Positions 37,097-56,100 of a DNA stretch of 64,000 nt are shown here, piece after piece. Origin of the DNA: a virus. The DNA is taken from positions 1 through 64,000 of the IMG/VR virus record IMGVR_UViG_3300046514_000653; one strand, 5' to 3'. Made by a program: the position numbers and the translations under genes. How positions within the stretch are numbered: position 1 is the stretch's first letter; the number at the start of each line of letters is the position of its first letter. The notes under the pieces are model-generated. The model was not told the DNA's origin. It did no database searches and saw nothing but the letters and a program-made list of their open reading frames with translations.

Positions 37097-40000
37097 TTAC
37101 TTCTTACGATTCCCTTTGCTGCCGTGGTTGCCTGTGATTGTAGCGTTGTAGCTGAACACTTCGGCCGGGATGCTGGAAGCGTTGCCCATTCCGTTAGTGA
37201 AACCCGGCCATTTGTAAGCGCCGAGAGACACGTTGGAGAATTCACCGGCCTTGTTCACAAAGTTCGGATCGCAGTAGTAGCCAGCACGTGTCATAGAGCA
37301 GTCGCCCCAGATGGCGCCGTAGTATTTGAGGACGAAAGTTTTGGCTGCATTGCATTGAGAAACACCAAGTAGGCATTGAGCCTTTAAGTAAGCGGCTAGT
37401 CCGGTGGTTCCTTCCGCAGTGTTCACGCGCGATGTGAATTCACCTGTGCCGTCACCGAGGGTGGTAGTCAGCCCCATGAGCCCGCATCCAGGTTGCCCGG
37501 TGCTAGAGAAGGCGTGGATGGTGTCGAAGAGATGAACCGCGTTGGGGATTCCAGGTTCTTCGCAATCACCGGAGACGCGGTTATAGTACATGCCTAAGGT
37601 GCCGGGATTGTTGAGATCGAGTCCGTAGGTAGCCATCCAATTCCCCAACTGACCGCTCATCGTTTGATAAGCAGTGGAGATGGTGGAATTGGAATGCTTG
37701 GATGCCCAACGCATGCCGGAGGCTTTGATACCGGTGAGCATAAAGCCCTGGAGTTCAAAGCCAGAAGTTACATAGCTGACCATGTGATTATCAGTAGTGG
37801 TACCGGCCCTCTGATCCCATGGGCGATTGAGTTTGAGCTGTCCAGAGTTGACGTAGTGGCATGCCCAGAAGGGCTGAAGCATCTTGTTATTCGCGAGCCC
37901 GGCCGCAACCGTCACATCCGGCCAGTCAAGGTTGCTGACTCCGATGGAAGTCATGTAGCCACCACCGAGGCTATTGTCTTCCACCATGAAGTGATAGTCG
38001 CCGGCAGTGAGCCCCGGCCAGAGAGCGGCGAGGGTGACGTTGCCGCCGCTGACAGAGAACTGACGAGTGACGACTAGAGGAGGAGAGACGCTGGTGTCTG
38101 TGATCGTGATGCGAGCACCGGGGTTGACCGTACCGCTGACTACTGTAGCGGCCGTCAAGCCAGGGGTGACGTGGATCAGACCTGTGCCGTCGTCGATACC
38201 AGCGCACATACCGGGCTTCACGATTCCGGTTGTTGGAGCTACGTTGGTAGAACCGTTAACGAGAGTCAGCGGGACAGACGCAGGATCGAAAATCGAAGCA
38301 CCCGCCCACGAGTTTGTATAGACATTAGGAGTGCCGCCAGGGACGAAGCCAGCAGCGTATCCATCTACCGCATTACGACGGCAGGTTTCGTCGCGCGTTT
38401 TCCAAGCCAGCAAACCATTCACCCATGCTGTTTGCCGGGTGGGATCGGTATCTCCCAAAGCAGCCAACGCATTCCAGCCTTGCGGATAGCCCTGGTCGCG
38501 CGGGTCGGCAGTGTTGCAGTTAAGTAGTGCGGTCGCGGCTCCGGATGCTGCGAATGGTTGAATGTCCAACCAAGTAAGTGGGGTGGAGACGTTGAAGATC
38601 TTGTCGATGATACTGCCGACAACGCCACCACCGTAATCCAGCACAAGCCCACCCAGAGCCCCGGAGATCTCCGGATCTCGAATGTAGTTGTCATCGATCT
38701 TGTTGGCGCTAATGACAGCCGGTTTATATCCGCTACGATGTTCGAACCGCCGCTCCTGCAAACCTTCTGCATAGAAGTCCGGACCGAATGGACTCCCAGC
38801 ACTGATCAGATCTTTATAGCTGAATTGTCCAACCAACGGCATCAAGTTCAAAGCAGTGATGTCATGAGTCGCGGCACCAAAAGCCGTCGTCTCGGAAGCG
38901 CAACCGGAGAGTTGAGTGAGAGCCCGATAGATGTTGCTGTTGGACGGAGAGGTGTAATCCAGCGAGGCGTACCGCAGGCTGGTGAATACATAGTTGAAAT
39001 TGCCGGAGTCGAAGTTGGTAGGTAGCGGCCGGCTGATAGTGATGGATAGATTGTCGGCGGCGACTGCGGTTACAAATGCCCAAAATGAGAATGGCATGCC
39101 GGTGTCGTGGGTAGCGAAGACCCGGATGTAGACCTGCGCTTGCATGTTATGCATGCAATCAGTGTTGAGAATGCCTAAAGAAGACGGACCCACCCCGCAC
39201 GAAGGAAATACGTTCTGTGTCCATGAAGCGGAATGCGCGGTCAATGTTGTGGACCCGGCCGTGCCGCTCACTGTGCCTGTGAAATAGAAAGCCTCACCTG
39301 GAGGGCCAGGAGCGCCGTTGGGGCAGAGAGCACGTACAGGGTCTGAGACAAAGAGAGTGCCGCTGCCTTGAATCAACATCTCGCCAACGGTAGTGGTAGA
39401 TGGCCACATAGAAGCGGGAGCTATAGGCTGAGCGTTGAGGTAGAATGCTCCGGCCATGCCGCGCCCGTCGTAGCAGGTAGTGAGATCAGCATCACCAGTT
39501 GTGGCTGTGGTGGAAGCGATACAAACTTGCTCCTGTAATCCAACTCCACCTCCGGTAGAGCCATCATTACCGAGTGAATTCCCGATCAAGATCCAGGTGG
39601 GAGTGCCGGGAAGAGAGAGAAGGCCGTGGAGACATTCAGCGTGATGGATATGGATCGTCGTGTCGGTCGACATGATGTCGGCGGAAAGAGTCGCTTTGGT
39701 CCCGCCTGATACACCCGATCCATAACATCCTTGACCTGGAGCTGGTCCGATGCCAGCGATTGTATAAGTCACCGTACCGGTAGCAGGAGTCAGCCAAGTT
39801 GTCGTAGCAAAGTATGGATTGCCTGAAGGCTGGAGCTGATTGAAATTGCAATCCTGGCCGTTGAGCTGCAGCATGACCGCGGTACAGTGCCGCTCGTCCG
39901 CATACCCGTATGGGTTTTGACCGAAGACGATTTGCGGCGCGTAAACTTGTTCTTCCAAATCAGACTGCACTAAAACACCATCGTTGTTGTAGTCAACGGC

Positions 40001-43000
40001 GCCGACTAGAAGTTGCTGATCCGCTGCATTACCTGTTGCGTCGGACGTATGGAGATTGAACGTGTAGGTACCGCGTTGTGTAAGACCGGTAACGTCGGTC
40101 AAGCACGAATTGGGAGACACGATTGTAGGAACTACAGGATCGTCGGCGGTGATATTGCTCCAGAGACAAGTAACGTTCGGCGTCGAATTGCTCTGCGTGT
40201 AGGAAGTGGTCCCATCGAGCTGATTGGTCGAGTTGACCTTGAAGCTGATCCATGGCGTCCAGGAAGGAGTAGCCACACCATTACCAACAATGCCGGTACG
40301 CGGAGTCGACTTTATCAAAGTCTGATATGGAGTCGGGACGTAGGTAGGCGAGCCCGAAGATAGAACCGCCGTCAACATATTTCCGGTTGAGTCCGCGAGC
40401 GTGCCGGTTTGATTAGCGGAATCAAATTTCCATTGGAAGATAGCAGCCGTTTGATCCTGCGCTGTAGTCGGGGGCGTGGAAGTTGCAGGGACGGCGGAAG
40501 AATAGATTCGAGCGTAGCCGTAAGCAATGGGGACAGTGGTACCGCCAATGATAAACCCGGCCGTGGAAGTGGGGCCGGTGATGCTTGTGTAGTTTGTCAC
40601 CAGATTCACATACACGAGACCGTTCTCGTCCACAGCTTGACAAGTGATCTGGCCTGTTGTGCCGCTAGTAGGTTTACGCTGCCAACGAATATCAACTAGG
40701 TTCTTACCGACGAATGGGATTTGGCAGTCCGATGCTCCAACGTTGTGGAGTGGAGAAAGCAGCATCAAGGGCTGTTCTCCAGGATTTTGAATCCAGTAGG
40801 TGTTGATATCGCACGTCGCATTTTGGATCGGGTGCTCAAACTGAACTTGCTGCCCCCAATCGGTTGCGCCCGGTACCGTGTGCATACGAATCTCCATGCG
40901 GCATGTACCGTTGGATGCAATGCCGGGAGTGGAAGTGGATGCTGTCTGAGAGCTGAGCACAATGGACCGGCCGAATTGAGTGGCGGGGACAAGAGTCTTG
41001 AACGCCATGCCGATATCGGAAGCACCTTCCGAATTCATATAGCGCCCGATGTTGGCGAAGTTTGCAATAGAGTACTGATCCACAAAAGAAGTGAAAGGCC
41101 GGATCGTATCTTCCCCACGAATGATTGTCGGAGGGTTGGAAGGAACGATGGTGGTTGGGGCGCCGGCAATAAGCGCGATGTTGATGTCGCCGGGCTCGGA
41201 CGGATATGGGCCGGTGGTAGCAGGAGGACCGCCCGGTCCGCTGACAAAGGATAGGTAGGAGGCACCGGATTCAATCGCACCAAGCCCGCTGTATACAACA
41301 GCAGACATGATCATGAAGTTGGCGTGGGTGTTGGTAAAGGTAACCACCTCATCCACGGCCGTGTCGGATGGTACGACGGTCATCATGATCGCGCCGTTAG
41401 CATCATCGAGATCCGCGAAGGGTCCGGAAGATACACCTTTGACCAGGGTCCAAGTGTAGCTGTGTGTGGTGGTAATGTCGGTGATCTGCGGGATCTGATC
41501 GCCCCAGCGGTTAACGATTGCATTGATATCGTGGGCTATTGCAATGGAGCAAGAAGTGGTATCTCCATTCGGAGTCACACAATCGGCTCCAGCTACACCA
41601 CGCGCGGAAAGAGTGGCGGTCGTGCCGGTACATGCGGAGACGGTGACTTTCTCTACGCGGCCGTAGTTTGCGTAAGTCGCATGCTCATTGACTTTGATGT
41701 CGAATGGTGGAGATGGAAAGTTGGAACAGTTTCCCACCATGCTCATGATCGTTGCCCCGGAAGTCATGGGAGCGGCGAGAGTGGTCTCGTAGACCTGATT
41801 TGTCCCCATAGACGCCTGCAGGATGATTGTCTCTCCGGCTTTGAGCCCGACTCCAGCTACAGCCGGGATTGTCATCGAGAGATTGAACGGCGATCCACTA
41901 CCACCGCTCAACGTAGCGTACTTCTCACAAAACACATTGACTGCTGTAGGTCCTACAACCGTGTGATTGCAAGCACCGGCCGTGTGGACTACGTTCGCGC
42001 TGACTACTGGAGAGACAGCGCTATTGCCCATCGAGTCGGTGGCTTTGACTCGGAACGTATGAATGCCCTCGGGGATAGGACGCACATCGGTGTTGACATT
42101 CCACACACTGCCGCTAAGTAGAGCTAGCGGACCAAACGTTGCGTTGTATGGCCCGCCGTCAAACGACAGATCCATGTTGGTGATCGAGCCCGCGTTGGAG
42201 GTGGCGGAAGCGATGACGCTAGAAAGTTCTGCAAACGCCTCACCTGGCTGCGTGCGCGGGAAGGGTTCGGAGATGAATACCTGAACACCAGATCCGCTGA
42301 TCACAGTGGGATGGAATGCGATGGAAGTCTGGAAGAACCCGTCGACGTTTAAATCGGTCTCGGGCTGTACGGTGCTGGTAGTAGCAGCAAAGTAATTGAT
42401 CTGACCAAAGGGCTTAGAGGTGTCCTCGATTGCTTCGATCGCCGGGCTGATAGGTTTGATCGGCGCCGCGAAAACAGAGGAGACGATCAGATCGCCGACT
42501 GTGACAGAGAATGGATCGACGTAGGCCGGTCCAGGAAGAGTGGTAGAGCCGTCGTTCTGTCCGCCCCAGCCCATCAAGTGTGCGCCGTTGCCGACCGATC
42601 CTACACCAGAGAAAAGAACGCACTGAAGTAGATTAACCTGCCCGGTACCATTGGGATTTTGGGACGTGATGACTTCGTTGGAGCCTGTGGTCGCTGGGAC
42701 GAAAGCAAAGTAATTGCCTATTTGCTCAACGTCGCTGTCCGTCGCACGCGTGCCAATCTCATCATAGAAAGTGAAGGTGTAACCCAGACTATTTGTTAAA
42801 TAGGAAGATTTCCAGGGGTAGTTGCTCTGTCCCTGCACCACACTCCAGTTGCCGACTACTTCACCGGAGACGTGATTGTGACCTACGGCCGTGACTGTCC
42901 AGTCTAGATTACCGGCTCCAGACATAGCGGTAACAGTAACGGTGTCCTCTGGATTGGGAATTTGTGGCGTGCCTGTCCCTAACCCACCCACCGGGCTCAA

Positions 43001-43612
43001 GGTTGCAAAGAACGGCGTGGATGGGAATCCAGCAGAGCTGGTGACGTGAATTAAAGTTGCTCCGGCTGTGACGCCGCTAGAGAGCTGTGTTTCGGGTGAT
43101 GCAGGTACGGACGCCTCCGCTTGACAGAAGATCAATTGGCCGGCCGTCAATCCGCCTGTGAGCGTGACCGAGCGGGCGACGTTGCTACTAGTGCTGATAC
43201 TAGTTACTGCCTGTTCGCAGAATTCTGTCGAGCTGCCAGGGACGGTCGTGTGAGAGCATTGCGGGTTGCTGTGTATGACCGTAACGTTTATCACAGACGA
43301 CACACCGGTATTCATCATGGCGTCGGTCGCTCGAACCTGTAGAGTTGTTGCTCCAACAGTCAAGCTCGATCCTTGCAATGACATGAGCCATTGAGTCGGA
43401 GGCATTCCAAAAAGCGTTGCCGCGCCGGTAAACGATCCACCGTTAATTGATAATTCAACTAGCGTGATCGCTGCGGCTGAAGATGCTACCGGTCCGGAGA
43501 TCTGAATACCACCGCCTCCAATCGTCGCCGTATTGGCTGGATAGGAGAAGGAGACGGTGACTTGTGCCGCTGCGCTGACTGCAAATAAGAGTGCTAGAAG
43601 TGTCTGTTTCAT
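37097..43612 (-). CDS. giant fibre/adhesin-like protein with signal peptide, 2171 aa
   Basis: The first 17 residues (MKQTLLALLFAVSAAAQ) are a typical Sec signal peptide. Two Ig-like beta modules follow, each ending in V[IV]H...C[SN]HT[TV]V...FCE (about 20-140 and 440-570), then long cysteine-poor beta repeats, a DYNNDGVLVQSD calcium loop near residue 1205 similar to a dockerin half, and a C-terminal domain of about 700 residues rich in aromatic residues. It sits after the tail tip genes in fibre position. The C-terminus may hold a carbohydrate-binding or hydrolase domain, not recognised. No frameshift seen. Confidence 0.7.
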   Translation of the reverse strand: MKQTLLALLFAVSAAAQVTVSFSYPANTATIGGGGIQISGPVASSAAAITLVELSINGGSFTGAATLFGMPPTQWLMSLQGSSLTVGATTLQVRATDAMMNTGVSSVINVTVIHSNPQCSHTTVPGSSTEFCEQAVTSISTSSNVARSVTLTGGLTAGQLIFCQAEASVPASPETQLSSGVTAGATLIHVTSSAGFPSTPFFATLSPVGGLGTGTPQIPNPEDTVTVTAMSGAGNLDWTVTAVGHNHVSGEVVGNWSVVQGQSNYPWKSSYLTNSLGYTFTFYDEIGTRATDSDVEQIGNYFAFVPATTGSNEVITSQNPNGTGQVNLLQCVLFSGVGSVGNGAHLMGWGGQNDGSTTLPGPAYVDPFSVTVGDLIVSSVFAAPIKPISPAIEAIEDTSKPFGQINYFAATTSTVQPETDLNVDGFFQTSIAFHPTVISGSGVQVFISEPFPRTQPGEAFAELSSVIASATSNAGSITNMDLSFDGGPYNATFGPLALLSGSVWNVNTDVRPIPEGIHTFRVKATDSMGNSAVSPVVSANVVHTAGACNHTVVGPTAVNVFCEKYATLSGGSGSPFNLSMTIPAVAGVGLKAGETIILQASMGTNQVYETTLAAPMTSGATIMSMVGNCSNFPSPPFDIKVNEHATYANYGRVEKVTVSACTGTTATLSARGVAGADCVTPNGDTTSCSIAIAHDINAIVNRWGDQIPQITDITTTHSYTWTLVKGVSSGPFADLDDANGAIMMTVVPSDTAVDEVVTFTNTHANFMIMSAVVYSGLGAIESGASYLSFVSGPGGPPATTGPYPSEPGDINIALIAGAPTTIVPSNPPTIIRGEDTIRPFTSFVDQYSIANFANIGRYMNSEGASDIGMAFKTLVPATQFGRSIVLSSQTASTSTPGIASNGTCRMEIRMHTVPGATDWGQQVQFEHPIQNATCDINTYWIQNPGEQPLMLLSPLHNVGASDCQIPFVGKNLVDIRWQRKPTSGTTGQITCQAVDENGLVYVNLVTNYTSITGPTSTAGFIIGGTTVPIAYGYARIYSSAVPATSTPPTTAQDQTAAIFQWKFDSANQTGTLADSTGNMLTAVLSSGSPTYVPTPYQTLIKSTPRTGIVGNGVATPSWTPWISFKVNSTNQLDGTTSYTQSNSTPNVTCLWSNITADDPVVPTIVSPNSCLTDVTGLTQRGTYTFNLHTSDATGNAADQQLLVGAVDYNNDGVLVQSDLEEQVYAPQIVFGQNPYGYADERHCTAVMLQLNGQDCNFNQLQPSGNPYFATTTWLTPATGTVTYTIAGIGPAPGQGCYGSGVSGGTKATLSADIMSTDTTIHIHHAECLHGLLSLPGTPTWILIGNSLGNDGSTGGGVGLQEQVCIASTTATTGDADLTTCYDGRGMAGAFYLNAQPIAPASMWPSTTTVGEMLIQGSGTLFVSDPVRALCPNGAPGPPGEAFYFTGTVSGTAGSTTLTAHSASWTQNVFPSCGVGPSSLGILNTDCMHNMQAQVYIRVFATHDTGMPFSFWAFVTAVAADNLSITISRPLPTNFDSGNFNYVFTSLRYASLDYTSPSNSNIYRALTQLSGCASETTAFGAATHDITALNLMPLVGQFSYKDLISAGSPFGPDFYAEGLQERRFEHRSGYKPAVISANKIDDNYIRDPEISGALGGLVLDYGGGVVGSIIDKIFNVSTPLTWLDIQPFAASGAATALLNCNTADPRDQGYPQGWNALAALGDTDPTRQTAWVNGLLAWKTRDETCRRNAVDGYAAGFVPGGTPNVYTNSWAGASIFDPASVPLTLVNGSTNVAPTTGIVKPGMCAGIDDGTGLIHVTPGLTAATVVSGTVNPGARITITDTSVSPPLVVTRQFSVSGGNVTLAALWPGLTAGDYHFMVEDNSLGGGYMTSIGVSNLDWPDVTVAAGLANNKMLQPFWACHYVNSGQLKLNRPWDQRAGTTTDNHMVSYVTSGFELQGFMLTGIKASGMRWASKHSNSTISTAYQTMSGQLGNWMATYGLDLNNPGTLGMYYNRVSGDCEEPGIPNAVHLFDTIHAFSSTGQPGCGLMGLTTTLGDGTGEFTSRVNTAEGTTGLAAYLKAQCLLGVSQCNAAKTFVLKYYGAIWGDCSMTRAGYYCDPNFVNKAGEFSNVSLGAYKWPGFTNGMGNASSIPAEVFSYNATITGNHGSKGNRKK
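43200..43210. repeat. palindrome near-copy (9/11)
   Basis: CTAGTTACTGC inside the 2171-aa fibre gene. Confidence 0.35.
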
Positions 43613-43615
43613 TCC

Positions 43616-46336
43616 TTATTGCCTCACGCTCAAGAAATTCCCTGTGTAAGCCTGCCCGGCAGTGCCGGTAGTGTAGATCGAGAATGTATGTGTTCCAGAT
43701 CCCATGGCGATGTTGTTGGAAACTGTCGGGTGGATTGCAAACTGTCCGGTGTTGTCAGTCGCCCAACTTGCGCACGATGCAAGAGTTGTACAGTACCCGG
43801 CCGGTGCCTTCATAGTGATGGTCTGCGCGTTCGTTACACCCGCGTTGTTGCAGTAGGTAAACGTCCTTTGATATGCATACCCAGCCGCAGCAGAGATGGT
43901 CTGTACTTGAAACACGAGGGTGGCATCGACATAGAAGAGAATGTTTCCTGCGGCTGTACCAGTGTTGGTATCGATGCCCATTTCCATGTTCATGCAATTG
44001 CCGGATGATCCACCCGCAGCCATCGCCGGCACTCCGGTTACTTCCATTAAGGGGATTGCTGATCCTGTTTGCGTGACCAACGTATTGCCAGTCGTGGAAG
44101 AGAACGATCCCCCACCCCCACTCATACACCCCATAGTTTCTAAACACACACGACCAGTACCGAGCGCTCCGTTGCTCAAATCAGTCGCCGCCATCTGATC
44201 GCCAGACGCAACGCGCGGCATCGCATGACGGTTAGGAGACGCGTTTCCAAAATAGACCAGGGTATGAGCCGCAGAGTCAAAGCACCAGAACCCCTGGCCG
44301 GAGATGGTGGTAGTCGGGCATGCCATCTCAGGGCCGGTATCTGACTCCCCAGTTAAATCGTTCGTGCATCCGGTACCTCGAATGGTCCCATCCGGCATCA
44401 CCTGCATACCCTGTGTGGTAGTGATGCCGTTAGCTAGAATAATCGATGAGTCGCACGTCGCGACCGCACTTCCACCGAACGCTACGGTGTATGTCGGTCC
44501 CATCGTCGGCTGGATGAAGTTGATATAGAAGATCGCGCCTCCGCCTGAGGGAACGCTTGCAAACGTTACCGAGGTGATGTTAACGGAAAGCGTGCAGCCG
44601 ATCACCGTGGTAGACTTCCCGCCCACGTCGGCCAGAGAGATCGTTGGAGTGGCGCCGCATGCGTTTGTAGCGCCTGTCGATCCAGTAAACACGCTTACTC
44701 CACTACCGCCGCCGCCCGCACCTGCAGCCGCCCATCCGGTGTTGACGGTACAAGCTCCGCTCTCTTTCTTATAGAGCGTGGTATTGGTGCCTCCGTCGAT
44801 CCGCATGTAGATAGAGCCGATGCAACCGGCCTTGCTGCCTTCTGGTGTGCCGCTGCCTGTGTAGATGCCAGGACCGCCGCTCAATTGAAGCTCGGGCGCA
44901 TCGTCGGAAGTATTCACCTTGTCTGAATTGATAAGGTGCTTGATCTCACCGTTGTTCGAAACTTCTCCACTCTGGTTGTTCTTGAATGCCGCGGTGTAGC
45001 CACCAACGTTAACGCCGGTGATCTCCCAATTAGCTAGAGTCCCTCCGCCCGCTTCTTCATAAAGCGCGTAGGTGCCAGAGCCGATTGTGTTGATCGCGGT
45101 GAGCCCATTGACAATCAGATTGAATGGATGACCACCTGAGGATCGAGGAGTGAAGTCGATGACATGCTGGTGATTCGTACTTCCGCTCGTTGCCTCAAAC
45201 TTAGTGTTGATAAACGTCGCAATATTAGACCCTCCAGTGTCTCCAGTATCTTGTACAATCTGGATCGGATTAACGCCAGAGTTGTCGATCTGCGTATCGA
45301 CCATAAGCATCACATTCGCCCCGACCAGATCGTTTAGGAATACCGCGCCTCCATTCTGCCCACCAAAGGTGCAGGAGTAGCAGGAGAAGTTAACCACCTG
45401 GTTGTCGAGTTCAAGACAGAAGTTCTTGCAGTTCTGAAACTGAACATGCCGGTATGTATTTTGATACCCGCCATTCCATTGTTTGACCAAGGACGGAGCG
45501 CTGGCGTTGTTGGTTGCATTCCCGTCCAACGTACAATTCTCCATTTGAAGGAAGTGCGCGTATCCATTCGCCATGAAGTAAGCAGAGGTGAAGGAGAAGA
45601 GCGCGGTGTTGCGCGAGTTGCCAAGCTTGATTACAGAAGCGAAGTTTACACCTTCCGCATTGTCGCCAGAAGCAGCGCAGACGAAGTGAAGATTTGCGTT
45701 AAATTCAATCGGCGTTACAGTCTCAGTAAACGTACCCGGTCCGATGTTCACAGTGCCTGTGTGTGACGGTACTCCGCCAACTGAGAGAGGAAGAGCGGCT
45801 ACGGCCGCGGCGACGGTGAGCTTTGCGGTCGGCCAGGATGTACCAGGGTTGGAATCGTTACCAGAGGCGGATACGTACATGATCGTAGAGTCGACGAGTC
45901 CGCCGGGAGGGCCGGTAGCTCCAGCAAGACCGGTAGCGCCAGCGCCTCCGTTGCTGTTCAGCACGACTAGGACGTTGCTGGAGCTGGAGTAGGTGACGTG
46001 GACAGATGTGAAGGAATCGCGCACGAGCACGCAAGGAAGAGCAGTGAGGTTGCCAGTGATCTCTCCAGTGGTGATCCCAGTGCCTGTCCAGCATTGAGCC
46101 ACAAGAGTGTTGAGCAGGGTTTGAGTGCTAAGAGCAAGAGCAGTGATGTCAATCGCTCCGGAGTTTGTAGCCGGTCCTGCAATAGACGCGTGAACGTTCG
46201 ACGCTCCCACTCCCACCCCACCTCCAGTGGGAGGAAAGGCAAATTGCGCGTGGAGCGCAGAGGAAAGCAGGAGGAAGCAGAAGCAGATGCTAGTAACTAG
46301 CTGGACTACAAACGATCCAAGGCGGCGGCGATTCAT
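43616..46336 (-). CDS. tailspike-like beta-helix protein with signal peptide, 906 aa
   Basis: Residues 1-31 (basic RRR, then VTSICFCFLLLSSALHAQ) form a signal peptide. A short collagen-like GATGLAGATGPPGG lies near residue 134, and a pectate-lyase-type right-handed helix follows (YVSASGNDSNPGTSWPTAK, then many N/C/T-rich rungs to about 450). The rest is beta-rich with a C-terminal lectin-like domain. Many cysteines (over 20), unusual for a cytoplasmically assembled phage fibre but normal for exported proteins. Confidence 0.7.
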   Translation of the reverse strand: MNRRRLGSFVVQLVTSICFCFLLLSSALHAQFAFPPTGGGVGVGASNVHASIAGPATNSGAIDITALALSTQTLLNTLVAQCWTGTGITTGEITGNLTALPCVLVRDSFTSVHVTYSSSSNVLVVLNSNGGAGATGLAGATGPPGGLVDSTIMYVSASGNDSNPGTSWPTAKLTVAAAVAALPLSVGGVPSHTGTVNIGPGTFTETVTPIEFNANLHFVCAASGDNAEGVNFASVIKLGNSRNTALFSFTSAYFMANGYAHFLQMENCTLDGNATNNASAPSLVKQWNGGYQNTYRHVQFQNCKNFCLELDNQVVNFSCYSCTFGGQNGGAVFLNDLVGANVMLMVDTQIDNSGVNPIQIVQDTGDTGGSNIATFINTKFEATSGSTNHQHVIDFTPRSSGGHPFNLIVNGLTAINTIGSGTYALYEEAGGGTLANWEITGVNVGGYTAAFKNNQSGEVSNNGEIKHLINSDKVNTSDDAPELQLSGGPGIYTGSGTPEGSKAGCIGSIYMRIDGGTNTTLYKKESGACTVNTGWAAAGAGGGGSGVSVFTGSTGATNACGATPTISLADVGGKSTTVIGCTLSVNITSVTFASVPSGGGAIFYINFIQPTMGPTYTVAFGGSAVATCDSSIILANGITTTQGMQVMPDGTIRGTGCTNDLTGESDTGPEMACPTTTISGQGFWCFDSAAHTLVYFGNASPNRHAMPRVASGDQMAATDLSNGALGTGRVCLETMGCMSGGGGSFSSTTGNTLVTQTGSAIPLMEVTGVPAMAAGGSSGNCMNMEMGIDTNTGTAAGNILFYVDATLVFQVQTISAAAGYAYQRTFTYCNNAGVTNAQTITMKAPAGYCTTLASCASWATDNTGQFAIHPTVSNNIAMGSGTHTFSIYTTGTAGQAYTGNFLSVRQ
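46290..46300. repeat. palindrome CTAGTAACTAG, exact
   Basis: In the signal peptide codons of the 906-aa spike gene; flanks give GCTAGTAACTAGC. Confidence 0.8.
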
Positions 46337-46347
46337 ATTTGACTCTC

Positions 46348-46358
46348 CTAGTAACTAG
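46348..46358. repeat. palindrome CTAGTAACTAG, exact
   Basis: Intergenic, between GACTC (46341-46345) and GAGTC (46366-46370), upstream of the 906-aa spike gene and 58 bp from the previous copy. Confidence 0.8.
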
Positions 46359-46436
46359 CGCTAATCGAGTCTTCCCGCCGCCGCGAAGAGACCTGGCGTT
46401 CACTTATCCGTACCAGTTTAACGCATCTAGGAAAGA

Positions 46437-48278
46437 TTAGCTTCCATTCGCAGAACAGTGAACAAAGTAGGTCACATCAAATGTAGATGGTCCGACCGTA
46501 CCGGCCGATGTGTTCAAGAATTCCTGAACAATCGTGACGCCATTGACGGCTGGGGTGAGGGCGAAGGTGCCGATTTTGGGATTGCCGCCTGTAACGTACA
46601 TTGTCGTGTTTGGAGTTGCGACGCAGTTAGGAGGATTGTTGAAAGGGATTGCAAAGATAAAGGCGGCAGAGACAGCACCCGTTGGCATGAGGAGCTGAAA
46701 GCTCTGGTCGGCATTGGTGTTTGAATAAAGGAAATGAAAGCCTGTACTGTTGCCGAGTTGCACAGTGTTAGGGGTACGCATAGAAGCGCCGAGGGCATCG
46801 ACGTAGTATATAGGCGGGGAGCCCCAGCCAAAAGAAGGACCAAAGCCTACTTTGCCGCTGAGAGAATCTAGATAGAGAATATTTAGTTCCGCAGGGCCAG
46901 AGCCTTGTACGTTCACGTCGACATTGGTGTTGTCTGTCGCACGTTTTACGAACTGAACAGAGCAGTTGTTTTCAGTGCCACCGTAAGAAGCGAGATAGGC
47001 TTTAAAATCCCCACCGTTGCCTGTAGTCGTGTTTGGCCAGCCGAAGCCGTACTTGCACTTGCGTTGTGGTAAAATGCCGCCTCCTGCCCACCATCCGGCT
47101 ACACCTGTGATTGGATCGACAGGGAGTGGGACGGAGGCAGAGGTTTGACCGGCTCCACCGGCAAGCATGACACCACCGGTGATGTTGATTTCACCAGGAG
47201 CGTAGAGTTCAGAGTTGGCGTCAGTCCAGACAGAGTAGAGAGGACCGGCCCCTGTAGTAAGTTCGCCGAGGAGTTGAATGGACTGCCGCTCGATGACAGC
47301 ACCGTTAGTGAGTTTTACGGTGTACATCGGGCCTGTCCCGTTGCCATTCACACGAAGGTGGATAGAGTCGCCGAACATCAGGATGCTGTTAGAGCCCGAG
47401 CCGTCAGCCATGAGGCATCCAGTGTTCGGATTGATCAAACTACAGTGCCAGTCCTCAATGGTGTTATACGCAAATGAATTGGTGCCACCTGTGTTGATCA
47501 TGCGCAAGTGTTCAGTGCAGTCGAACGTATCCATAACACGCACGGTTGTCTGTTCAGTGAACTGCGGTGAGGTTGCAGAATTCTCCCAGGTCATGCAAGT
47601 ACTTGTAGATCCGTTGAAACCGCGGATGGTTAGGTTTTCGTACTTCATCCCGAGGCGCGACTCTTGCCAGATACCAGTGGAAGAAGTAGGCGAGCCGTTG
47701 CCGTCCGTGACGCGGCAATTGCGCATGACTCCGGAGATGTAGGGAACGTCAGAGGCAAAGGGAGAAACGTACACAGCTTGCCCGGTCGCGGCCGTGTAGA
47801 GAATTGTTGAGCCCTGGCAGTCGAAGACCACCATGGACGCGGGGATAGTCACGTCACGGCTTGTAGCGACAGCGCAGATCTTCCCTGGAGGAAGCTTGAC
47901 TGTACCTCCTGTCATGGGAAGAGCTGCGAGCGCCGCGGCGATCACTGGACCGTCATTAGTCACCCCATCACATACTGCGTTGACTACAGTAGGATCGCAA
48001 ATGTTGGAGAGTCGAAGATTGTGCGTTCCATCTCCATTGATCGTATTCGGGCTCGTCACGCAGCCGAAGGTATCGGTAGTCCATAAACGATAAGACAGAT
48101 TTGCTCCACCCATAGAATCAGGCGGACGAAAGCCAAAGAAATGCGCCGGATTCTGTTTGTCGCGAAGCTGTATCTCACCGGTTGTAGTCCTGGTGCTATC
48201 TGGAATGATCGTCAAAAGATGCTGCTGCGATTGTCCAAGAAGGACAGAGCTGAGTAAGACAAAGATTGCTGTTTTCAT
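46437..48278 (-). CDS. tailspike-like protein with signal peptide, 613 aa
   Basis: MKTAIFVLLSSVLLGQSQ is a short signal peptide. GVTNDGPVIAAALAALP and GGTVKLPPGKICAV are the classic opening of right-handed beta-helix tailspikes and polygalacturonase-like enzymes, followed by rungs (YENLTIRGFNG). The C-terminus resembles phage fibre ends (NSTGFHFLYSNTNADQSF). Cysteine-rich. The intergenic 46337-46436 upstream of the next spike holds two inverted repeats (GACTC/GAGTC and GGCGGCGG/CCGCCGCC) around a palindrome copy. Confidence 0.7.
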   Translation of the reverse strand: MKTAIFVLLSSVLLGQSQQHLLTIIPDSTRTTTGEIQLRDKQNPAHFFGFRPPDSMGGANLSYRLWTTDTFGCVTSPNTINGDGTHNLRLSNICDPTVVNAVCDGVTNDGPVIAAALAALPMTGGTVKLPPGKICAVATSRDVTIPASMVVFDCQGSTILYTAATGQAVYVSPFASDVPYISGVMRNCRVTDGNGSPTSSTGIWQESRLGMKYENLTIRGFNGSTSTCMTWENSATSPQFTEQTTVRVMDTFDCTEHLRMINTGGTNSFAYNTIEDWHCSLINPNTGCLMADGSGSNSILMFGDSIHLRVNGNGTGPMYTVKLTNGAVIERQSIQLLGELTTGAGPLYSVWTDANSELYAPGEINITGGVMLAGGAGQTSASVPLPVDPITGVAGWWAGGGILPQRKCKYGFGWPNTTTGNGGDFKAYLASYGGTENNCSVQFVKRATDNTNVDVNVQGSGPAELNILYLDSLSGKVGFGPSFGWGSPPIYYVDALGASMRTPNTVQLGNSTGFHFLYSNTNADQSFQLLMPTGAVSAAFIFAIPFNNPPNCVATPNTTMYVTGGNPKIGTFALTPAVNGVTIVQEFLNTSAGTVGPSTFDVTYFVHCSANGS

Positions 48279-51200
48279 CTAAGTAATCGAACCTCCAGTG
48301 CGCCAAGCGTCAATTCCCCAAAGAGTGCCGTGATATTCAAACAGAGCTGTCGAGCGTGTACTTAAATCCGCGGCAATCGGAGCCTCATTTTCATCGTTGG
48401 TATCAGCCGTGAATCCAGGTGTGCCAGTCGTGAATACGCAGCGTTGGCGCCCACCGGTTGCGTCCTGGTCGATGTAGAGAGTAAAGTCGATACCTGCTGT
48501 GATGACTCCACCGGTCCAAATTGGAGCGTCGACAGTGATCAGACTTCCGTCCAGGACAATGCGTTGATTCAAGCCATTGGCTAAATCGATGACTGCATGC
48601 CCGGCCACAATGATGATGTCGTAATAGCCGCGGTTAATTCCCGCCCCTTCTTTGCCGAAGCTATAGAGCATGCGCGTCGGAGCAAATTCTTCCGCGGATT
48701 CTACATCATCCATGTCGACTGTAAATCCGCCGACTAAGAAAGCCGCGCCTGCTTGATTCTTGATTGGAACTGAGATAGAAGTGTTCGCACTGATATCAGC
48801 GTTCTGGAAATCTGCGCTGTCGATCGGCGATGACCAAGCGTTGACTACAACAACAACAATGGATGTGGCGTCGAGAGGAAGAGGCTGGTCGAGGACGTAG
48901 CTGATATTCGTGTCTACATCTACGATCTTTGCTGAGAGCCCGCGCGAGAGACCGCGGATGCACATGACGACATTGCCGATACGATTCGGGTCGTGGATCG
49001 TCTCGCCGGAGTGAGGCGGAGTGTTAGTTGCGTTCAAAAGACCGAAGTCAGAAAACGCGTACTGGTTACTAGAGTTGTCATAACCAGAGAAGCAGACAAC
49101 GATGACATCGCCGACAAGAAGCGGAAAAACGCCGGCTGTTGGATCACGATTGAGTGTAAGTTTTCCTGTCGCGGGATTAAAGGCCGTACAGTTCGCGTGA
49201 AAGTAAGGAGCTTCTCCGTTGTTGCGCCCAATGCAAGCGATTTGACGACCGGCCCAGCTATCGGTAGAGGAGATGTCGACGAGCTGTGAACAAGTGATGG
49301 AGGTGGAATCGAGAGCGTCGATTGGAGCACCGGCGACGCCACCGTGGATGAGATCGCGGGTTTTGATCCGGATCTTTTTCGTGCGCGTGTTCGGGACCGC
49401 ATAGGTGGAGCGGACGAAAGGACCATCGACTACAAAGCTCGTAGCAGGTAGAACAACAGGTTGCTGAAAGCAGATCAATTGATCGATGTCAGAGATGAAG
49501 ATAGCTCCAGCCGTAGGTGTTGGACCACCAGTCGTTGACCAAGTAATTCCAAAGACAGTAAATACATTTGTATTTGTACCGGCCGGGATTTGTACGATCA
49601 GGATCTTAGACGCACCCGAGAGGCTGAAATCAAATCCGGCAGCAAATTGGACGCGAAGAGTGATGCCGCCTTTAATAAACCCGCCTGTTGTAGCCTGTGT
49701 AACCTTTACGCCAGTGATGTCGGGAGCCCCGGAGTCTTGAAACGGAGAGGTGACGGGGAGACTACCGGAGACAATGACTTCAGAATTAACAGTGCCGCCA
49801 AAGACTGTGTAGTCTTGCTTTAAGCTGAACGTACGTTCATTGGCAAACAATACGTCAGTCGGATCTGCGACAACAGCATTGGGAGCCCACGCTGGATTAG
49901 AGCTAGGCGGATGGTAGAGGATCGGCAATGGAGCTGGTTTAACGCTAGTAGGCTTCGGTCCTTTATCCAAGTCGTACATGGAATCGGTGACGGAGCGAAG
50001 GATGAAAGAGATGGAATAGTCTTTGTACAATGCCCAGTTGCGAATCCGGAAGTTCCAGGTGTGATCTGGATATGAAGAGGCTCCGACAGCACCTGGGTAG
50101 GTAGGAACATCTGGATGAGTGATAGAAACAACTTGCCCAACATACGTCTCAAGCGAGAGGATCGTCGATTTAAAGACTGCATCTCTTGCTCCGTCCCATT
50201 CGATGTAAGGATTGAGAAGATCCGGACGCAGGATGCCGCCGATCTCCTCACGCACACGAGTAGCAGCAACGCGTAGAGCCTGGGACATGTTGCACATGCC
50301 GACAGAGCGCATGTCAGTTTGAAGCGCTGCGTTATTGCGGCCGAAGTAAAGCGCATGGTCTTTGTCCGTGTACTCGGCCTGATCATTCTGATATTGCAGA
50401 GCACGATTGGCAAAGAGCAAGCGGATGGACTCAAAAGACGCTTCGATGGGAGTGCAGGAGAAGGACTGAAAGAGCATGTTGGCCAGTGTGAAAGCAGAGG
50501 TAGCTGCTGCATTCTCACGGATGGATAACCGCAGCCGGCCGAATTCAAAAGAGAAGATACCGAGAGCACAAGAAATGATTTCAGCAAGCCAGTCACGAAA
50601 TGGTTTGGACTCAGACAAAGCACCATTGAATACAAATTGAGTTTCAGTTCCTCCACCGAGTAGAGCAGGGACGACAAGATCCGCGATCTCTGCACAGCCG
50701 CTGCCATCACCGACAAAAAGCGATTCGGGAATGTAGTACTGTGTCTGCACACTCGGATCTGTGTTGAAGACACCAAGAGCACGCAGGAGACAGGAGACCG
50801 CGACCCAGAAGGGATTAGTGAGACCGGGGGTGAGAGTTCCGGAAGCTGAAGAGATTCCTGTGAGCCCACGCGAGATAGGGATGGTCATCGAGTGGGCATC
50901 AGTGTTTGTTGGAAGTATGCCAGCGCCGGAAGATTTGGCATAACGCATTTCAACAAACGCTGTCCCGGCCGCGAAGGGAAGAATGTCGTGAGCTTGACTA
51001 GTATTGATATTTCCGAAGACAGGATCGGGAACATCCCAGTGCTGCGGAGTCCCCTGGCCGAGCGAGAAGAAGTCAAAGGTTTTTGATGCCGGGTCAGCGC
51101 CGAGTACTTCACGTAAACCTAATTCTGGATGAAAACCTGTGACGTTGAGTTGACTATCGACGTTGAACCCTTGAGGTGTAAAGCCGTCAGCAAGCGGAGA

Positions 51201-52580
51201 GACTACAATCTTGTACCCGTCTGCAGTAGTCTGCACAGACATGCCTGTGTAAGCGCCGAGTGGACCGGCTCCAACGATACCAAGGATGTCTTCAAAGTCC
51301 GATTCTTCTCTGACGGCCGCTATGATTGTATTCGCTACAAAGGCTTGCTTAGGATCGCCATTGTCATTGCACCAGATCTCAGGCAGAACCTTGCCCCACA
51401 TGGAGTCGGCGATGATCGAAGTGGCAGTGACAGTATCGCGGAGGAAGCCGCCGATGATCCCAGTGCCGTTGTCTTTGATGGACGCAGACTGCGGGAATGC
51501 CGGGTGTCCACCAAAGAACGGGGACATACCATGAGCAAGACAACCGTTGGGGGTGTTGAAAAAGTAATCACAAGAATGCGGATCGCCGCCGAGCGCGACA
51601 AGAGCGGCTCCGGATGCGCCTTGTGTATCGAAGGGACAAAGCGGTGCTACGTTGAACTTCTTGTAGCACTGATGTGAGATCTTCTGTTGAGGGTAAGCGA
51701 GCGTGATTGGATAGAGACCATCTGAACAGATGATCTTGAACTTGGAGCTGGCGTCGAGTTGCCATTTTTGAATAAAGCCGCGCCAGAGATCCAGTCTAAT
51801 CGCAGTGTTGACATGAAATAAAGAAAATTGCACATCCGCGTATTGAAGGCCGGTGTCCTGGACGAAGAGCGACATCGCGCGATCTGCATTGCCAAGTGTA
51901 AATTGAACATTGTCCGCTCGGCCGGAGATGTCCTGAGACATGATTAGATCACTGCCTGGCTCTCCAATAGAGAGAACACGAGGGAGATAGAGTTGATCAC
52001 CGATCTTACAACGACGGTCGGAGAGGTAAAGAGGTAGGACAGCCGGGTCGCGAACTTGAATACGAAAGAGCGGGATGATCGTCTGCACTTCCGAGAGCAG
52101 AGCTGTGGCGAGAGAGGACCGTGGGAAGCGAGTGTCTACACCGTTGAGCGGATAAGTAGGCGGAGATGTTGGATCGATGATCTCCAGAAACGTCATCCCC
52201 GTTTGAGTCATTGTGGCGAGATCGGTTAAAGACAAAGGATTGAGATCGTGGATGACTGTAAAAGGTGTAGTCGTAGTTGGGTCGATGTCTGGAGCGTTGT
52301 AAGTGAATGAGGAAAGCGATCCGGAGGTGAGATTGTAGAAGTCTGTGAGTTGCTTCCGTTCTGCACGTGATAAAGCCGCACGGACAAAGGTGAAGCGGCG
52401 AAGACCAGAACCGGTAGAGAAGACTTGTTTCTGAAGCGTCGCGCCAGAGCCGAATTCATGTGTGATTGTTTTCCAATCACGAGACATGGAATAGCCAAAG
52501 TCCGTGGCAACAGACAACGGCCACGTGGCGCCAGATGGAGTGGGAGTCGGGATAGTAATGCGACCAAGAGTGTCTGACAT
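48279..52580 (-). CDS. tail tip hub protein, fused gpL-type and hub domains, 1433 aa
   Basis: The N-terminus (about 1-110) resembles the DUF2460-type adaptor at tail ends; residues about 160-290 match the DUF2163/gpL-type pattern (LSDRRCKIGDQLYLPRVLSI). Four cysteines near 305-350 (C...LCPFD...CDYFF...GCLAHGM...FGGHPAFP) match the iron-sulfur-binding C-terminal domain of lambda gpL. The remainder is a large hub and beta-sandwich region. The gene appears to combine roles that are separate in lambda (gpM/L and J). It starts after a 35-aa membrane peptide gene. Confidence 0.75.
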   Translation of the reverse strand: MSDTLGRITIPTPTPSGATWPLSVATDFGYSMSRDWKTITHEFGSGATLQKQVFSTGSGLRRFTFVRAALSRAERKQLTDFYNLTSGSLSSFTYNAPDIDPTTTTPFTVIHDLNPLSLTDLATMTQTGMTFLEIIDPTSPPTYPLNGVDTRFPRSSLATALLSEVQTIIPLFRIQVRDPAVLPLYLSDRRCKIGDQLYLPRVLSIGEPGSDLIMSQDISGRADNVQFTLGNADRAMSLFVQDTGLQYADVQFSLFHVNTAIRLDLWRGFIQKWQLDASSKFKIICSDGLYPITLAYPQQKISHQCYKKFNVAPLCPFDTQGASGAALVALGGDPHSCDYFFNTPNGCLAHGMSPFFGGHPAFPQSASIKDNGTGIIGGFLRDTVTATSIIADSMWGKVLPEIWCNDNGDPKQAFVANTIIAAVREESDFEDILGIVGAGPLGAYTGMSVQTTADGYKIVVSPLADGFTPQGFNVDSQLNVTGFHPELGLREVLGADPASKTFDFFSLGQGTPQHWDVPDPVFGNINTSQAHDILPFAAGTAFVEMRYAKSSGAGILPTNTDAHSMTIPISRGLTGISSASGTLTPGLTNPFWVAVSCLLRALGVFNTDPSVQTQYYIPESLFVGDGSGCAEIADLVVPALLGGGTETQFVFNGALSESKPFRDWLAEIISCALGIFSFEFGRLRLSIRENAAATSAFTLANMLFQSFSCTPIEASFESIRLLFANRALQYQNDQAEYTDKDHALYFGRNNAALQTDMRSVGMCNMSQALRVAATRVREEIGGILRPDLLNPYIEWDGARDAVFKSTILSLETYVGQVVSITHPDVPTYPGAVGASSYPDHTWNFRIRNWALYKDYSISFILRSVTDSMYDLDKGPKPTSVKPAPLPILYHPPSSNPAWAPNAVVADPTDVLFANERTFSLKQDYTVFGGTVNSEVIVSGSLPVTSPFQDSGAPDITGVKVTQATTGGFIKGGITLRVQFAAGFDFSLSGASKILIVQIPAGTNTNVFTVFGITWSTTGGPTPTAGAIFISDIDQLICFQQPVVLPATSFVVDGPFVRSTYAVPNTRTKKIRIKTRDLIHGGVAGAPIDALDSTSITCSQLVDISSTDSWAGRQIACIGRNNGEAPYFHANCTAFNPATGKLTLNRDPTAGVFPLLVGDVIVVCFSGYDNSSNQYAFSDFGLLNATNTPPHSGETIHDPNRIGNVVMCIRGLSRGLSAKIVDVDTNISYVLDQPLPLDATSIVVVVVNAWSSPIDSADFQNADISANTSISVPIKNQAGAAFLVGGFTVDMDDVESAEEFAPTRMLYSFGKEGAGINRGYYDIIIVAGHAVIDLANGLNQRIVLDGSLITVDAPIWTGGVITAGIDFTLYIDQDATGGRQRCVFTTGTPGFTADTNDENEAPIAADLSTRSTALFEYHGTLWGIDAWRTGGSIT
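49062..49072. repeat. palindrome near-copy (10/11)
   Basis: CTGGTTACTAG inside the hub gene. Confidence 0.5.
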
Positions 52581-52691: not shown

Positions 52692-53147
52692 CTAAGTTGT
52701 CTCCTCTAGGGTGATGCCTGGAATATCGCAACGGCCGAGGTTTACAATGATTTTCCAATCTCCCTTAAAGCGCACAACAACACGTCCTGTGGTACTGATA
52801 CCGGTTGGGTCGTAGTTAGAGCCAATTTGAGTACCTGGGAGAGCACCATACGGATCATAGAAGTAGAAAGGGACGAGACCGCCAAAGACAGATTCAAAAA
52901 AGTCAAGGAAAGTAACAGCGTCACTATAGCCAAGTCGTCTCGACATGTACCACGTACGCGCCGGCCGCGGAGGATTTACACCGTCGACGATGAGACTACG
53001 CTCGATTGTGCCGTCGTTGTAGATTGCCGAGAGGATCGGAAATTGAGAGGTTAGAGAGAAAGCTGTGGCTAGACCGGCTGGCATGACTAACGATGGGGCG
53101 GCGAGTTGAAGAGAGCCGGGCATAGTGTAGTTTTGGTTAGCTCGCAA
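52692..53147 (-). CDS. minor tail protein, 151 aa
   Basis: The string FDFFESVFGGLVPFYFYDPYG ... TGRVVVRFKGDW (written as RRLGYSDAVTFLDFFESV in the preceding part) is typical of minor tail proteins that lie between tape measure and tip. It overlaps the tape measure gene end by 11 bases. Probably joins the tail tube end to the hub. Confidence 0.65.
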   Translation of the reverse strand: MRANQNYTMPGSLQLAAPSLVMPAGLATAFSLTSQFPILSAIYNDGTIERSLIVDGVNPPRPARTWYMSRRLGYSDAVTFLDFFESVFGGLVPFYFYDPYGALPGTQIGSNYDPTGISTTGRVVVRFKGDWKIIVNLGRCDIPGITLEETT

Positions 53148-56100
53148 TCGATCCGGGTTGGCTCAGTGCCAGAGCTGCATCGACTCTCCCTTGACTTCCT
53201 CTCCAAGCCGCGGCTTGCGCCTGCGCGACGTAGGACGGTGTGATGACTTGCCCCTGCATGAACGGCGAGATCCCATCTCCATCCACGTTCAGCGACAGAG
53301 AGATATTTCCACCTCCGCCACCAGGGGACGGGAAAGTCCCGACGCCAGCGGTCCCACCGTAGACGGGGAGGTTGGAGCTGTACGCATACTGATTGCCGTA
53401 GAGCGATGTTGTTTGTTGAAACAGCCGCCCACCGGATTCTACAAGTCCGCCTCCATGTGGAGTATCCGCGCCTTGCGGGAAGTTGCGCGACTGTCCAGTC
53501 CCGGCCGCGTAGAGCCCGAGCATCTGGCGTACTTCAGGGGAGCGGACGGCGAGAGAGACGTGAGAAGCGTAGGACTGCTGCGAGATCGCGACAATCTGAT
53601 CAGCCATGGCAGTGTTGATTGTGATTCCGTACTGAGATTTCACAAGCCGCTTGGCTTCATTACGCGGAGACTCGACGCCAGCGATCTGCTCACCAAAACC
53701 AATGCCAGCGCCTACAGCCGCGCCAATAGGACCGGCAATGAGATAGCCACCGGCTGCACCTTGGAGAGTACCGGCGAATGTTCCACGTTGATTACCGAGT
53801 AATCCGTGCTCGGCCAAAGCGATACCAATCCCTCCAGCGATTCCTCCGAAGGGAGTGTTGGCAAGTGGAGCTTTAGACAGAGATCCAATAGAGAAACCTT
53901 GTCCCTCATCCACACCGGGTGTGTTGTCATCGATTCCTGGAGTACCGCCTTTATCACCACGGCCGAAAAGGTCGCCGATGTGAAAGCCGGAGTAGGAAGA
54001 TTTGTTGAAGAGACTGCCGATGCCTTTGATGAAGCCACCGAAACCTCCGCCTCCTTGAGTCCCACCTCCACCTCCACCTCCGCGGAAGATGCCGCCGAGG
54101 ATGCCGCCAATCCCTCCACCTCCGCCGCCTCCAGACGTAGACCCTCCACCCGAGAATCCGCCAAAGCCGCTGTTGAGTCCGCCGCTCCCACTGTTCACAA
54201 ATCCTGGAGTTCCACCAGGACCAAGGAAGGAAGGAAGGCCAAGAGGGCTAGCCCCGAAGTCTCCACTGCCTCCAGAGAACCCAGAAGTCCCGCCTAGACT
54301 GCCCCCAGGACCTACAGGGAAGGGGGAGAAGCCGCCTCCGCCGCCCGAGAACCCACCACCACCCCCTCCACCCCCTGCGATAGCTCCTGCGGCGTTTGTA
54401 AGCGCGGAAGCCGCATAGGTTAGAGCAGAGGCTGCTGGGATGAGTGGGGCGCCAATGCCGGTCGAGCCTCCAGAGATCCCGCGAAGAGCCCCATTGATCC
54501 CACCGTTGCCGCCTGCACCAAAGATGACGGGTTGCAGGAAAGTAGAGATGTGCTCACTGATCCCTTCTGTGATCGGCTTGAGTGCCGCAGTCTTCACAGT
54601 GCCGAGCAGATCCTTACCGAAATTGCCGGGCTTAGTGAAAAGGGTAGTTACTAGCGTATTGACCTGCCCCTTGATTTCTTCTGTCTGCTGCTTGACGATC
54701 TCCAGACGTTTGATGTCATATTCATCCTGCGCCTGGTTGCGTTCTAGTGCGAGAGTGTTAAGACGACGAGCGTTGGCGATGTCGCGCTCATTGCCTTCGT
54801 CAAGAAGATTGATCCGACGTTGCTCGATTTGATCAAGTTGTTGGGCGAGCTGGAGACGGATTTGGTATGCGTTGGTGGCTTGCGCAACAGGATTGCCAGA
54901 GTTAGAGAGAGAAGAGATTTGACCAGCGCGGCCGAAGCGGCGTTCTGTTTCAGACTTCGCTCCACCAAGGTTAATGTCCAGGATCTCGTCCTGCGCACGA
55001 AAGCGCTTTTGGTTCTCTTCAAAGAAGAGCTTCTCAGCAGCGCCGATGGGTCCGCGGGCTCGACGCTCACCAGTACCTTCGGCTTGATAGTTGTTCAGTA
55101 GCTCACGCTGAATCTGCTTATCTTCCGCATCCTTGCGATTTACTTCAGCGATGCGAAGCGCAAAACCAGCAGCCTCCTGGCCGTAGAGCTTTTGGAAAAC
55201 AGCCCGTCCTCCAGGTTGAGCAAGGACACCATTGTTCGTGTTCTCACGCAGAAGGTTGCGCAGAGCGATGTCTTCTTCTCCGCGGATCTTTCCAGCTTCA
55301 CCTAAGTTTTGATACTTCGTGCGCGTATCGTTGTCGGCAACTTGATCGCGAAGATGTGCAACGTTCTGAAGATAATTCAGTCGCTCTTGTTCTTCTTTAC
55401 CGAGACGTTTGACTAACTCTTCCTGGCGTTGGTATGCGGCGTTTGCTTTATTGACCGCTTTCTCTTGCTCCTGAACAACAGAGAGGAGAGTTCCGTTTGC
55501 TGCAGAGCGCTCAAGTAGGACTCGCTTTTCATCCAGGTCCTGTTTGCGTACAGAAAGTTCACGCTCCGCTCCTTCACGCGTGCCGGAGCCGAAGTTAGAA
55601 AGGAACCGCTTGGCTTCATCCGATCCTTGTGTGCCGAAGATCAAATCAGCATTGCGACGAGTTTGTAAAATACCGCGGTTGAACAAACCTCGCGCGGCAT
55701 CTCCACGGATGTCTGTGAAGGGGACGACGTTTGAGAAGTCACCGCGGGACCGGGCGAGAAGATCTTCTTTACTTGCCTGTCCGATGTCGAGTGGCGTCTC
55801 GCCGGCAGTGATAGCTGAACCAGCTTGAACTACTTTAAGAAAGACAGTGGCAGTGATGTCTTTGAAGCTGTTCTTAAACTGCTCCCAGCGCGCGTCTACG
55901 TCCGCGATCTGCTGTTTGTAGCTCGCCCATTTGTCAATGTCATCTTGCTTTGGAGCTGGAAGACCGTGAGCGTCGAAGTAGACAGTGTTTGCTTGAAGTT
56001 CTTTGAGGAACGGGATTGCTTCTACACCTGCACGCTGGAAGAGATCGCGAGCGTCTTGCGCGAGCTTCGTACCAGGATTGAGGTGAGAGAACTTCTCAGA

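Follow-up and report, generated by a model that had tools for sequence, protein, structure and literature searches.

Putative tail spikes and fibers with predicted Sec signal peptides in a phage of a very probable acidobacterial host

Three consecutive proteins in tail-fiber position begin with predicted signal peptides

We analyzed a 64,000-nucleotide stretch of viral DNA (the window; positions 1 to 64,000 of the 76,302-base IMG/VR virus contig IMGVR_UViG_3300046514_000653) in which three consecutive genes encode putative tail spikes or fibers of 613, 906, and 2171 amino acids (aa), each beginning with a predicted Sec signal peptide. On balance, we believe that the three proteins are genuine virion spikes or fibers that are exported by Sec, fold oxidatively in the periplasm, and dock at a late stage, probably upon lysis. 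Export of the spikes is strongly indicated by their sequences, and the part of this reading that can be followed in sequence is well supported, namely signals at fixed start codons, anchor domains in several relatives, conserved and even-numbered cysteines, and recurrence in cultured phages.

The three genes adjoin the tail tip or hub genes within the late operon, which is a tail-fiber gene position, and lie on the minus strand with exactly the boundaries and lengths that the initial annotation had given them. The first (46437..48278) encodes the 613-aa putative spike, with a pectate-lyase-like stretch from approximately residue 100; the second (43616..46336) encodes the 906-aa putative spike, with a beta-helix-like middle at residues 144-538; and the third (37097..43612) encodes the 2171-aa fiber or spike, with an Ig-like start and weak matches to Big_13 and PKD. 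Their predicted signal peptides, with ^ marking the predicted cut, are MKTAIFVLLSSVLLGQS^Q (48228..48278, minus strand), MNRRRLGSFVVQLVTSICFCFLLLSSALHA^Q (46247..46336, minus strand, cut at approximately residue 27-30), and MKQTLLALLFAVSAAA^Q (43565..43612, minus strand), respectively. All three N-termini have a positive start, a hydrophobic core of 8-10 residues, and a small residue ahead of the cut, which is followed by Gln. A Gln after the signal cut (A-Q) is frequent in Acidobacteria.

Signals were called by rules on charge, hydrophobic core, and an A-x-A-like site, and a strict form of this caller was also used. All three proteins were positive, and residue-shuffled versions of them passed in 0.3-1.4% of trials. 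Among 416 control head and tail genes, the strict caller passed 2; its false positives were internal tape-measure starts and small membrane proteins. Applied to all 187 ATG frames of the contig, whatever their kind, it marked 10, real genes among them. The weakest signal is that of the 613-aa protein, whose site, G-Q-S^Q, is not a classical A-x-A. A Shine-Dalgarno match precedes the ATG of every one of the three genes, an in-frame stop lies 0, 6, and 1 codons upstream of the start in the 613-, 906-, and 2171-aa genes, and no credible internal start that would drop the signal was found in any of them. The Sec signals that had been proposed for all three proteins are thus borne out by the rule-based caller, the fixed start codons, and the controls, and the proteins have the features that would be expected of Sec and signal peptidase I substrates at their true starts. 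The 613-aa protein itself gave a marginal match only to a pectate-lyase/beta-helix body and no meaningful match in a sequence search of the PDB, and no muralytic domain, the mark of a signal-arrest-release (SAR) or secreted endolysin, was found in the three proteins at E values up to 10.

The remaining 12.3 kb of the record encode three more signal-bearing proteins of 249, 908, and 125 aa in the same late operon, located between TerS and TerL and missed in the initial annotation; two are fiber-like and the third is small. A signal is present on five of five fiber-like proteins of this phage, and no signal-less fiber or spike candidate was seen in its late operon. The location of three signal genes between the small and large terminase genes is unusual (L221 7572-11426, corresponding to record positions 71572-75426). 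The 249-aa protein ends in PHROG 5417, a family for which no function is known. Another small signal-bearing protein (140-143 aa; 61596..62018, minus strand), likewise missed at first, was found with the rule-based caller in the head region; its homolog in L082 (approximately 2063-2503) is 36% identical over 118 aa and also has a signal-like start.

Orthologs retain signals through domain swaps, and relatives carry anchor domains behind them

A second viral contig, L243, carries orthologs of all three proteins in preserved order, each with a signal, in a phage that differs in having a P22-like portal and other head genes. When viral contigs were pattern-scanned with the 2171-aa protein, its ortholog there went undetected, and the contig was reached only via the 906-aa protein. 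The ortholog of the 2171-aa protein (L243:10732-17103, 2123 aa) is 65% identical in its mature part, counted from the shared QVTVSFSYP, and the signals ahead of this motif diverge (MKQTLLALLFAVSAAA in the 2171-aa protein versus MKNLFLLFFLCLGNLFS in the 2123-aa protein). The ortholog of the 906-aa protein (L243:7455-10004, 849 aa) is 69% identical over 395 aa, has swapped N- and C-terminal parts, and has its own signal. That of the 613-aa protein (L243:549-2492, 647 aa) is 43% identical over 527 aa, brings its own signal and a head-binding domain, and gives weak matches to PF12708 (E 0.033) and an exopolysaccharide depolymerase PHROG (E 0.0015). In the 613/647 and 906/849 pairs the N-terminal parts differ and a signal is present in both members. 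Since the bodies are shared but the N-terminal parts have been swapped, each with its own signal, the signal is maintained independently of its neighbors.

The L243 orthologs of the 613- and 906-aa proteins, together with gp12 of the cultured Tunturi phages described below, contain a head-binding domain that matches the N-terminus of the Serratia MTx and Escherichia coli ep3 spikes. The MTx and ep3 spikes have no signal and carry Ala where the exported ones have Cys, reading MELKTFFAQDKFGNLVPGATVTVY or MELKTYFAQDRNGNLIPSATVSIF, whereas the exported spikes bear a signal together with an additional stretch containing one Cys (GYCEAG, GNCEQG, or GVCSAG) and show a second Cys in place of the Ala (SCTVTVY, ACTVTVY, or GCTVTVY). 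Signal and cysteine pair co-occur across the five head-binding-domain sequences compared.

In a further family, the DT fibers, the N-terminus is formed by a DT domain and the C-termini vary; many members also have a GQxLxW/VFGRTGAVTAQAGDY linker. Its gene stands just before the hub gene in several relatives of the 1433-aa tail tip or hub protein of the window (48279..52580, minus strand), which has no signal and served both as a control and as the anchor for finding relatives. A signal was called in 17 of 18 viral loci and 28 of 29 host loci of the DT domain family; the 18th viral locus (L095) has the same core and a Glu in the n-region. In L177, the DT domain is without a signal and starts at the mature N-terminus of signal-bearing relatives. 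A predicted model of the domain, reasonably confident only for residues 18-115 (predicted local distance difference test, pLDDT, ∼80), finds its best PDB fold matches in the Ur-lambda tail tip, the Bxb1 tail tip, the XM1 neck, and a neck fiber; its matches in a viral library include tail fiber, minor tail, and lambda-like fiber N-terminal proteins. A PDB sequence search with the DT alignment gave no meaningful match. At 12 of 78 hub loci, by our reading, a fiber-like signal gene stands just upstream of the hub, and approximately 9 of approximately 76 linker-bearing fibers from all viruses have convincing signals, two of these from low-GC contigs. In L001, the closest relative when judged by the hub, a signal-less pectate-lyase spike of 827 aa occupies the same position, indicating that spikes are exchanged.

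Cysteines are conserved and even in number

The initial annotation had called the spikes cysteine-rich and taken this to fit an oxidizing compartment. Cysteine content is indeed raised in the three proteins (2.3, 2.6, and 1.7% versus 0.8% in other late proteins), but the signal-less hub reaches 1.3%, and content does not separate the groups across relatives. Parity and conservation do separate them. The mature signal-bearing proteins have an even cysteine count in 22 of 28 clusters, versus 14 of 34 for signal-less fibers (Fisher p = 0.004); this result depends on the choice of cut site and on clustering, with p ranging from 0.0001 to 0.014 for mature and from 0.015 to 0.055 for whole proteins. 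Between the window and L243, 32 of 35 aligned cysteines are kept in the 2171/2123 pair, and 9 of 11 and 6 of 8 in the other two, at background identities of 65, 46, and 69%. The hub keeps 8 of 19 at 48% identity. Pooled, conservation is 47 of 54 for the exported proteins versus 8 of 19 for the hub (p = 0.0003), although the two comparisons use different phage pairs. The idea of an oxidizing compartment is therefore supported on other grounds than content: the cysteines of the exported proteins, and not those of the hub, are kept far above background, and in the head-binding domain a cysteine pair accompanies the signal. Such conservation is what would be left by disulfides formed outside the cytoplasm.

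The pattern recurs in cultured phages of Acidobacteriota

Tunturi_1 and Tunturi_2 are podoviruses of Tunturiibacter psychrotolerans X5P2 (PMC11924767; PP887698, PP885685). In both, signals are found on gp12, gp13, gp14, gp16, and gp17, that is, on five of six consecutive genes of the fiber/spike region, and on none of the 20 further genes listed for that stretch of Tunturi_1 (Fisher p = 9e-5). GenBank annotates gp13 as tail fiber (in Tunturi_2), gp14 as tail spike or pectin lyase, and gp17 as virion structural protein. The gene 12-17 cluster thus resembles the window in consisting of consecutive large spike or fiber genes, nearly all with a Sec signal, and its large proteins have even mature cysteine counts (20, 10, 20, and 32). 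Unlike the window phage, Tunturi_1 and Tunturi_2 are podoviruses, with a gp12 that shares its domain with the L243 spikes, and no sequence match was found between their cluster and the three window proteins. Spikes with signals are found in Acidobacteriota phages that are unrelated to the window phage. A search of the main text of the Tunturi paper gave no hit for "signal peptide" (PMC11924767). In approximately the first halves of the Tunturi_3 and Tunturi_4 genomes, the annotated fibers of the former and the tail genes of the latter have no signal. At a site far from the other tail genes, Tunturi_1 gp78 (L249 13744-14946) is a 400-aa "tail protein" with a lipoprotein-type signal, MNTKILLLSLLLTGC.

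Phage, host, and genomic surroundings

Among the rightward genes of the record are those for a DNA polymerase, a helicase, and a ParB-like protein. The genes of the late operon point leftward and lead through a TerS-like gene, a lambda-type TerL, a lambda-type portal, an S49 head protease, capsid protein E, the tape measure, and the 1433-aa tail tip or hub to the 613-, 906-, and 2171-aa proteins. Neither the major capsid protein (63259..63969, minus strand; Phage_cap_E, PF03864) nor the tape measure protein (53137..56949, minus strand; PF10145 and PHROG tape-measure families) has a signal. The presence of a tape measure gene indicates a long-tailed phage. The hub family comprises 80 IMG/VR loci and one contig of a Solibacteraceae metagenome-assembled genome, from which the host of the window phage is very probably an acidobacterium. 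A possibly lysis-related class 3 lipase/esterase gene (window 33953-34726; PF01764, PHROG 21992) lies close to where the late operon putatively ends, and the early region encodes a protein of 529 aa whose N-terminal domain is a uracil-DNA glycosylase (window 23685-25274).

The neighbors of DT-domain copies in host genomes were checked by homology to one gene block; most copies lie in phage-derived blocks, and three (L137, L139, and L140) are without the block's other genes. Approximately two-thirds of 29 examined acidobacterial genomes (L132-L136, L222-L241) contain a syntenic phage-derived block with TerL, a portal-like protein of 414 aa, a HipA-like gene, a capsid-like 323-aa protein at 81-94% identity, a head-tail adaptor, three small tail-like genes, and a signal-bearing fiber, which is often 1100-1550 aa long and in L132 ends in a GDSL lipase. 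The block looks vertically inherited and under strong selection, and is a candidate gene transfer agent or domesticated particle.

Discussion

In the route that we envisage, spikes and fibers of an Acidobacteriota phage would be synthesized as preproteins, moved into the periplasm by the Sec machinery, and relieved of their N-terminus by signal peptidase I, after which conserved cysteine pairs would form disulfides in the periplasm. The mature N-terminus would be the virion-anchoring part or lead straight into it, and the folded spike would be able to dock on tails. Since assembly of heads and tails is cytoplasmic, the most likely moment for docking would be the breakage of the envelope at lysis. 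P22 tailspikes add spontaneously to finished particles in vitro. We infer this chain, from Sec export, signal peptidase I cleavage, and disulfides through trimer folding in the periplasm to presence in the virion and late docking, from the signals, cysteines, and anchors described above.

Several observations weigh against this reading. Cysteine content was dropped as proof of an oxidizing compartment (signal-bearing versus signal-less fibers, p = 0.96). Most hub relatives have signal-less fibers after the hub, and L025-type phages have signal-less fibers in addition to a signal-bearing one. Tunturi_3 has signal-less fibers on the same host strain as Tunturi_1 and Tunturi_2, which also indicates that the host does not force the export signal and that it is a property of certain phages. 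The Tunturi paper makes no mention of mass spectrometry or SDS-PAGE (PMC11924767). The DT fold matches are weak (best PDB E 0.008, with a model pLDDT of ∼80 there), and an AlphaFold model of the 613-aa protein alone was unusable (pLDDT 35) and was discarded. Database domain searches with the three window proteins gave no match of note, including none to a virion-anchoring N-terminal domain; for these proteins, we infer the anchor from gene order, operon position, and the orthologs.

The main competing explanation, which we consider unlikely but deserving of serious attention, is that the proteins are exported depolymerases or adhesins that act outside the virion, either released before lysis to clear exopolysaccharide or displayed on the surface of the infected or lysogenic cell, for example to block superinfection. 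Such secretion would fit signals that are real by the rule-based caller and the shuffles, as well as the GDSL lipase at the end of a host-genome relative and the additional signal-less fibers of L025-type phages; moreover, a tailspike fold is known from a cellular enzyme exported by Tat (WceF, PMC7949094), and a phage hydrolase resembling tail-associated hydrolases has a signal (PMC10975493). However, it leaves unexplained why relatives keep a virion-anchoring domain directly behind the signal. The genes also occupy a tail-fiber position beside genes of the hub and tail, inspection of this phage's late operon revealed no other spike candidate, and the GenBank labels of Tunturi gp13, gp14, and gp17 are those of virion parts.

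It is improbable that the N-termini stay uncut as hydrophobic components of the virion or as membrane anchors, assisting contact between the tail tip and a membrane or holding the spikes at the inner membrane until assembly. Hydrophobic N-terminal helices could do such a job, but the signal segments retain their charge, hydrophobic core, and small residues at positions -3 and -1 despite diverging in sequence, homology in the 2171/2123 pair begins at the predicted cut (Q^VTVSFSYP), and the signal-less L177 protein begins at the mature N-terminus. The proposal in the initial annotation that host secreted genes were recently captured and fused into the fiber locus, leaving signals as functionless relics, is also quite improbable. 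The signals look acidobacterial, with A-Q at the cut, and the signal-less spike at the same place in L001 indicates that spikes are exchanged; relics, however, would decay, and these signals are kept across phages with different tails despite swapped neighboring domains, with conserved and paired cysteines going along with them. Capture is not supported for the class as a whole, given the phage anchor domains behind the signals, the different tail types, and the survival of signals through domain swaps, and host-genome copies with examined neighbors lie mostly in phage-derived gene blocks. Miscalled starts or chance hydrophobic N-termini, to which the nonclassical site of the 613-aa protein might point, are hardly credible in view of the Shine-Dalgarno matches, the lack of upstream room, the 2 of 416 strict-positive controls, the signals on all five fiber-like genes, and the orthologs that keep them.

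Should the spikes prove to belong to the virion, morphogenesis of tailed phages would here require a step outside the cytoplasm and yield disulfide-stabilized spikes, which could suit extracellular survival in soil. As a tentative generalization, there may be a second assembly route for tailed phages, in which spikes mature in the periplasm with disulfides, the virion is completed at burst, and lysis switches infectivity on; it would have arisen or spread in several Acidobacteriota phage lineages, and perhaps in other phyla. The question lends itself to direct testing, as plaque-forming phages with the feature exist (Tunturi_1 and Tunturi_2) and the same strain supports growth of Tunturi_3, whose annotated fibers lack it. 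Our search of the open-access PubMed Central (PMC) literature turned up no description of tail spikes or fibers of tailed phages with Sec signals, although this does not prove that none exists. A missing signal peptide has been taken as support for a viral origin of adhesins (PMC6199706), and cellular targets have been described as mostly having a membrane segment or a signal (PMC8144416). Phage spikes with signals would break that rule, and viral spikes would resemble host secreted enzymes in soil metagenomes. The "signal peptides" of extracellular contractile injection systems (PMC12210884) were dropped as a parallel; they are disordered loading tags and something different.

Among known systems, the closest are the spikes and fibers of tailed phages such as Serratia phage MTx (gp038) and Escherichia phage ep3, and the lambda-type fiber N-terminal domain. 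The anchor domain recurs behind the signal in the L243 spikes and Tunturi gp12, the fold of the DT domain is similar, and the tail-fiber gene position is shared, as are the bodies where these are putatively pectate-lyase- or beta-helix-like; the known relatives differ in beginning directly with the anchor, with no signal and no cysteine pair. Coat proteins of filamentous phages are virion proteins with Sec signals and are assembled at the envelope, but these phages are unrelated and non-tailed, and every particle is assembled in the membrane. Tailed phages likewise send late proteins through the host Sec system in the case of Lys44 of fOg44 and the SAR endolysins (PMC6116005), which are lysis enzymes rather than virion parts. 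Finally, WceF of Pantoea stewartii (PMC7949094) is an exported protein with a trimeric tailspike fold, and differs in being cellular, Tat-exported, and not part of a virion.

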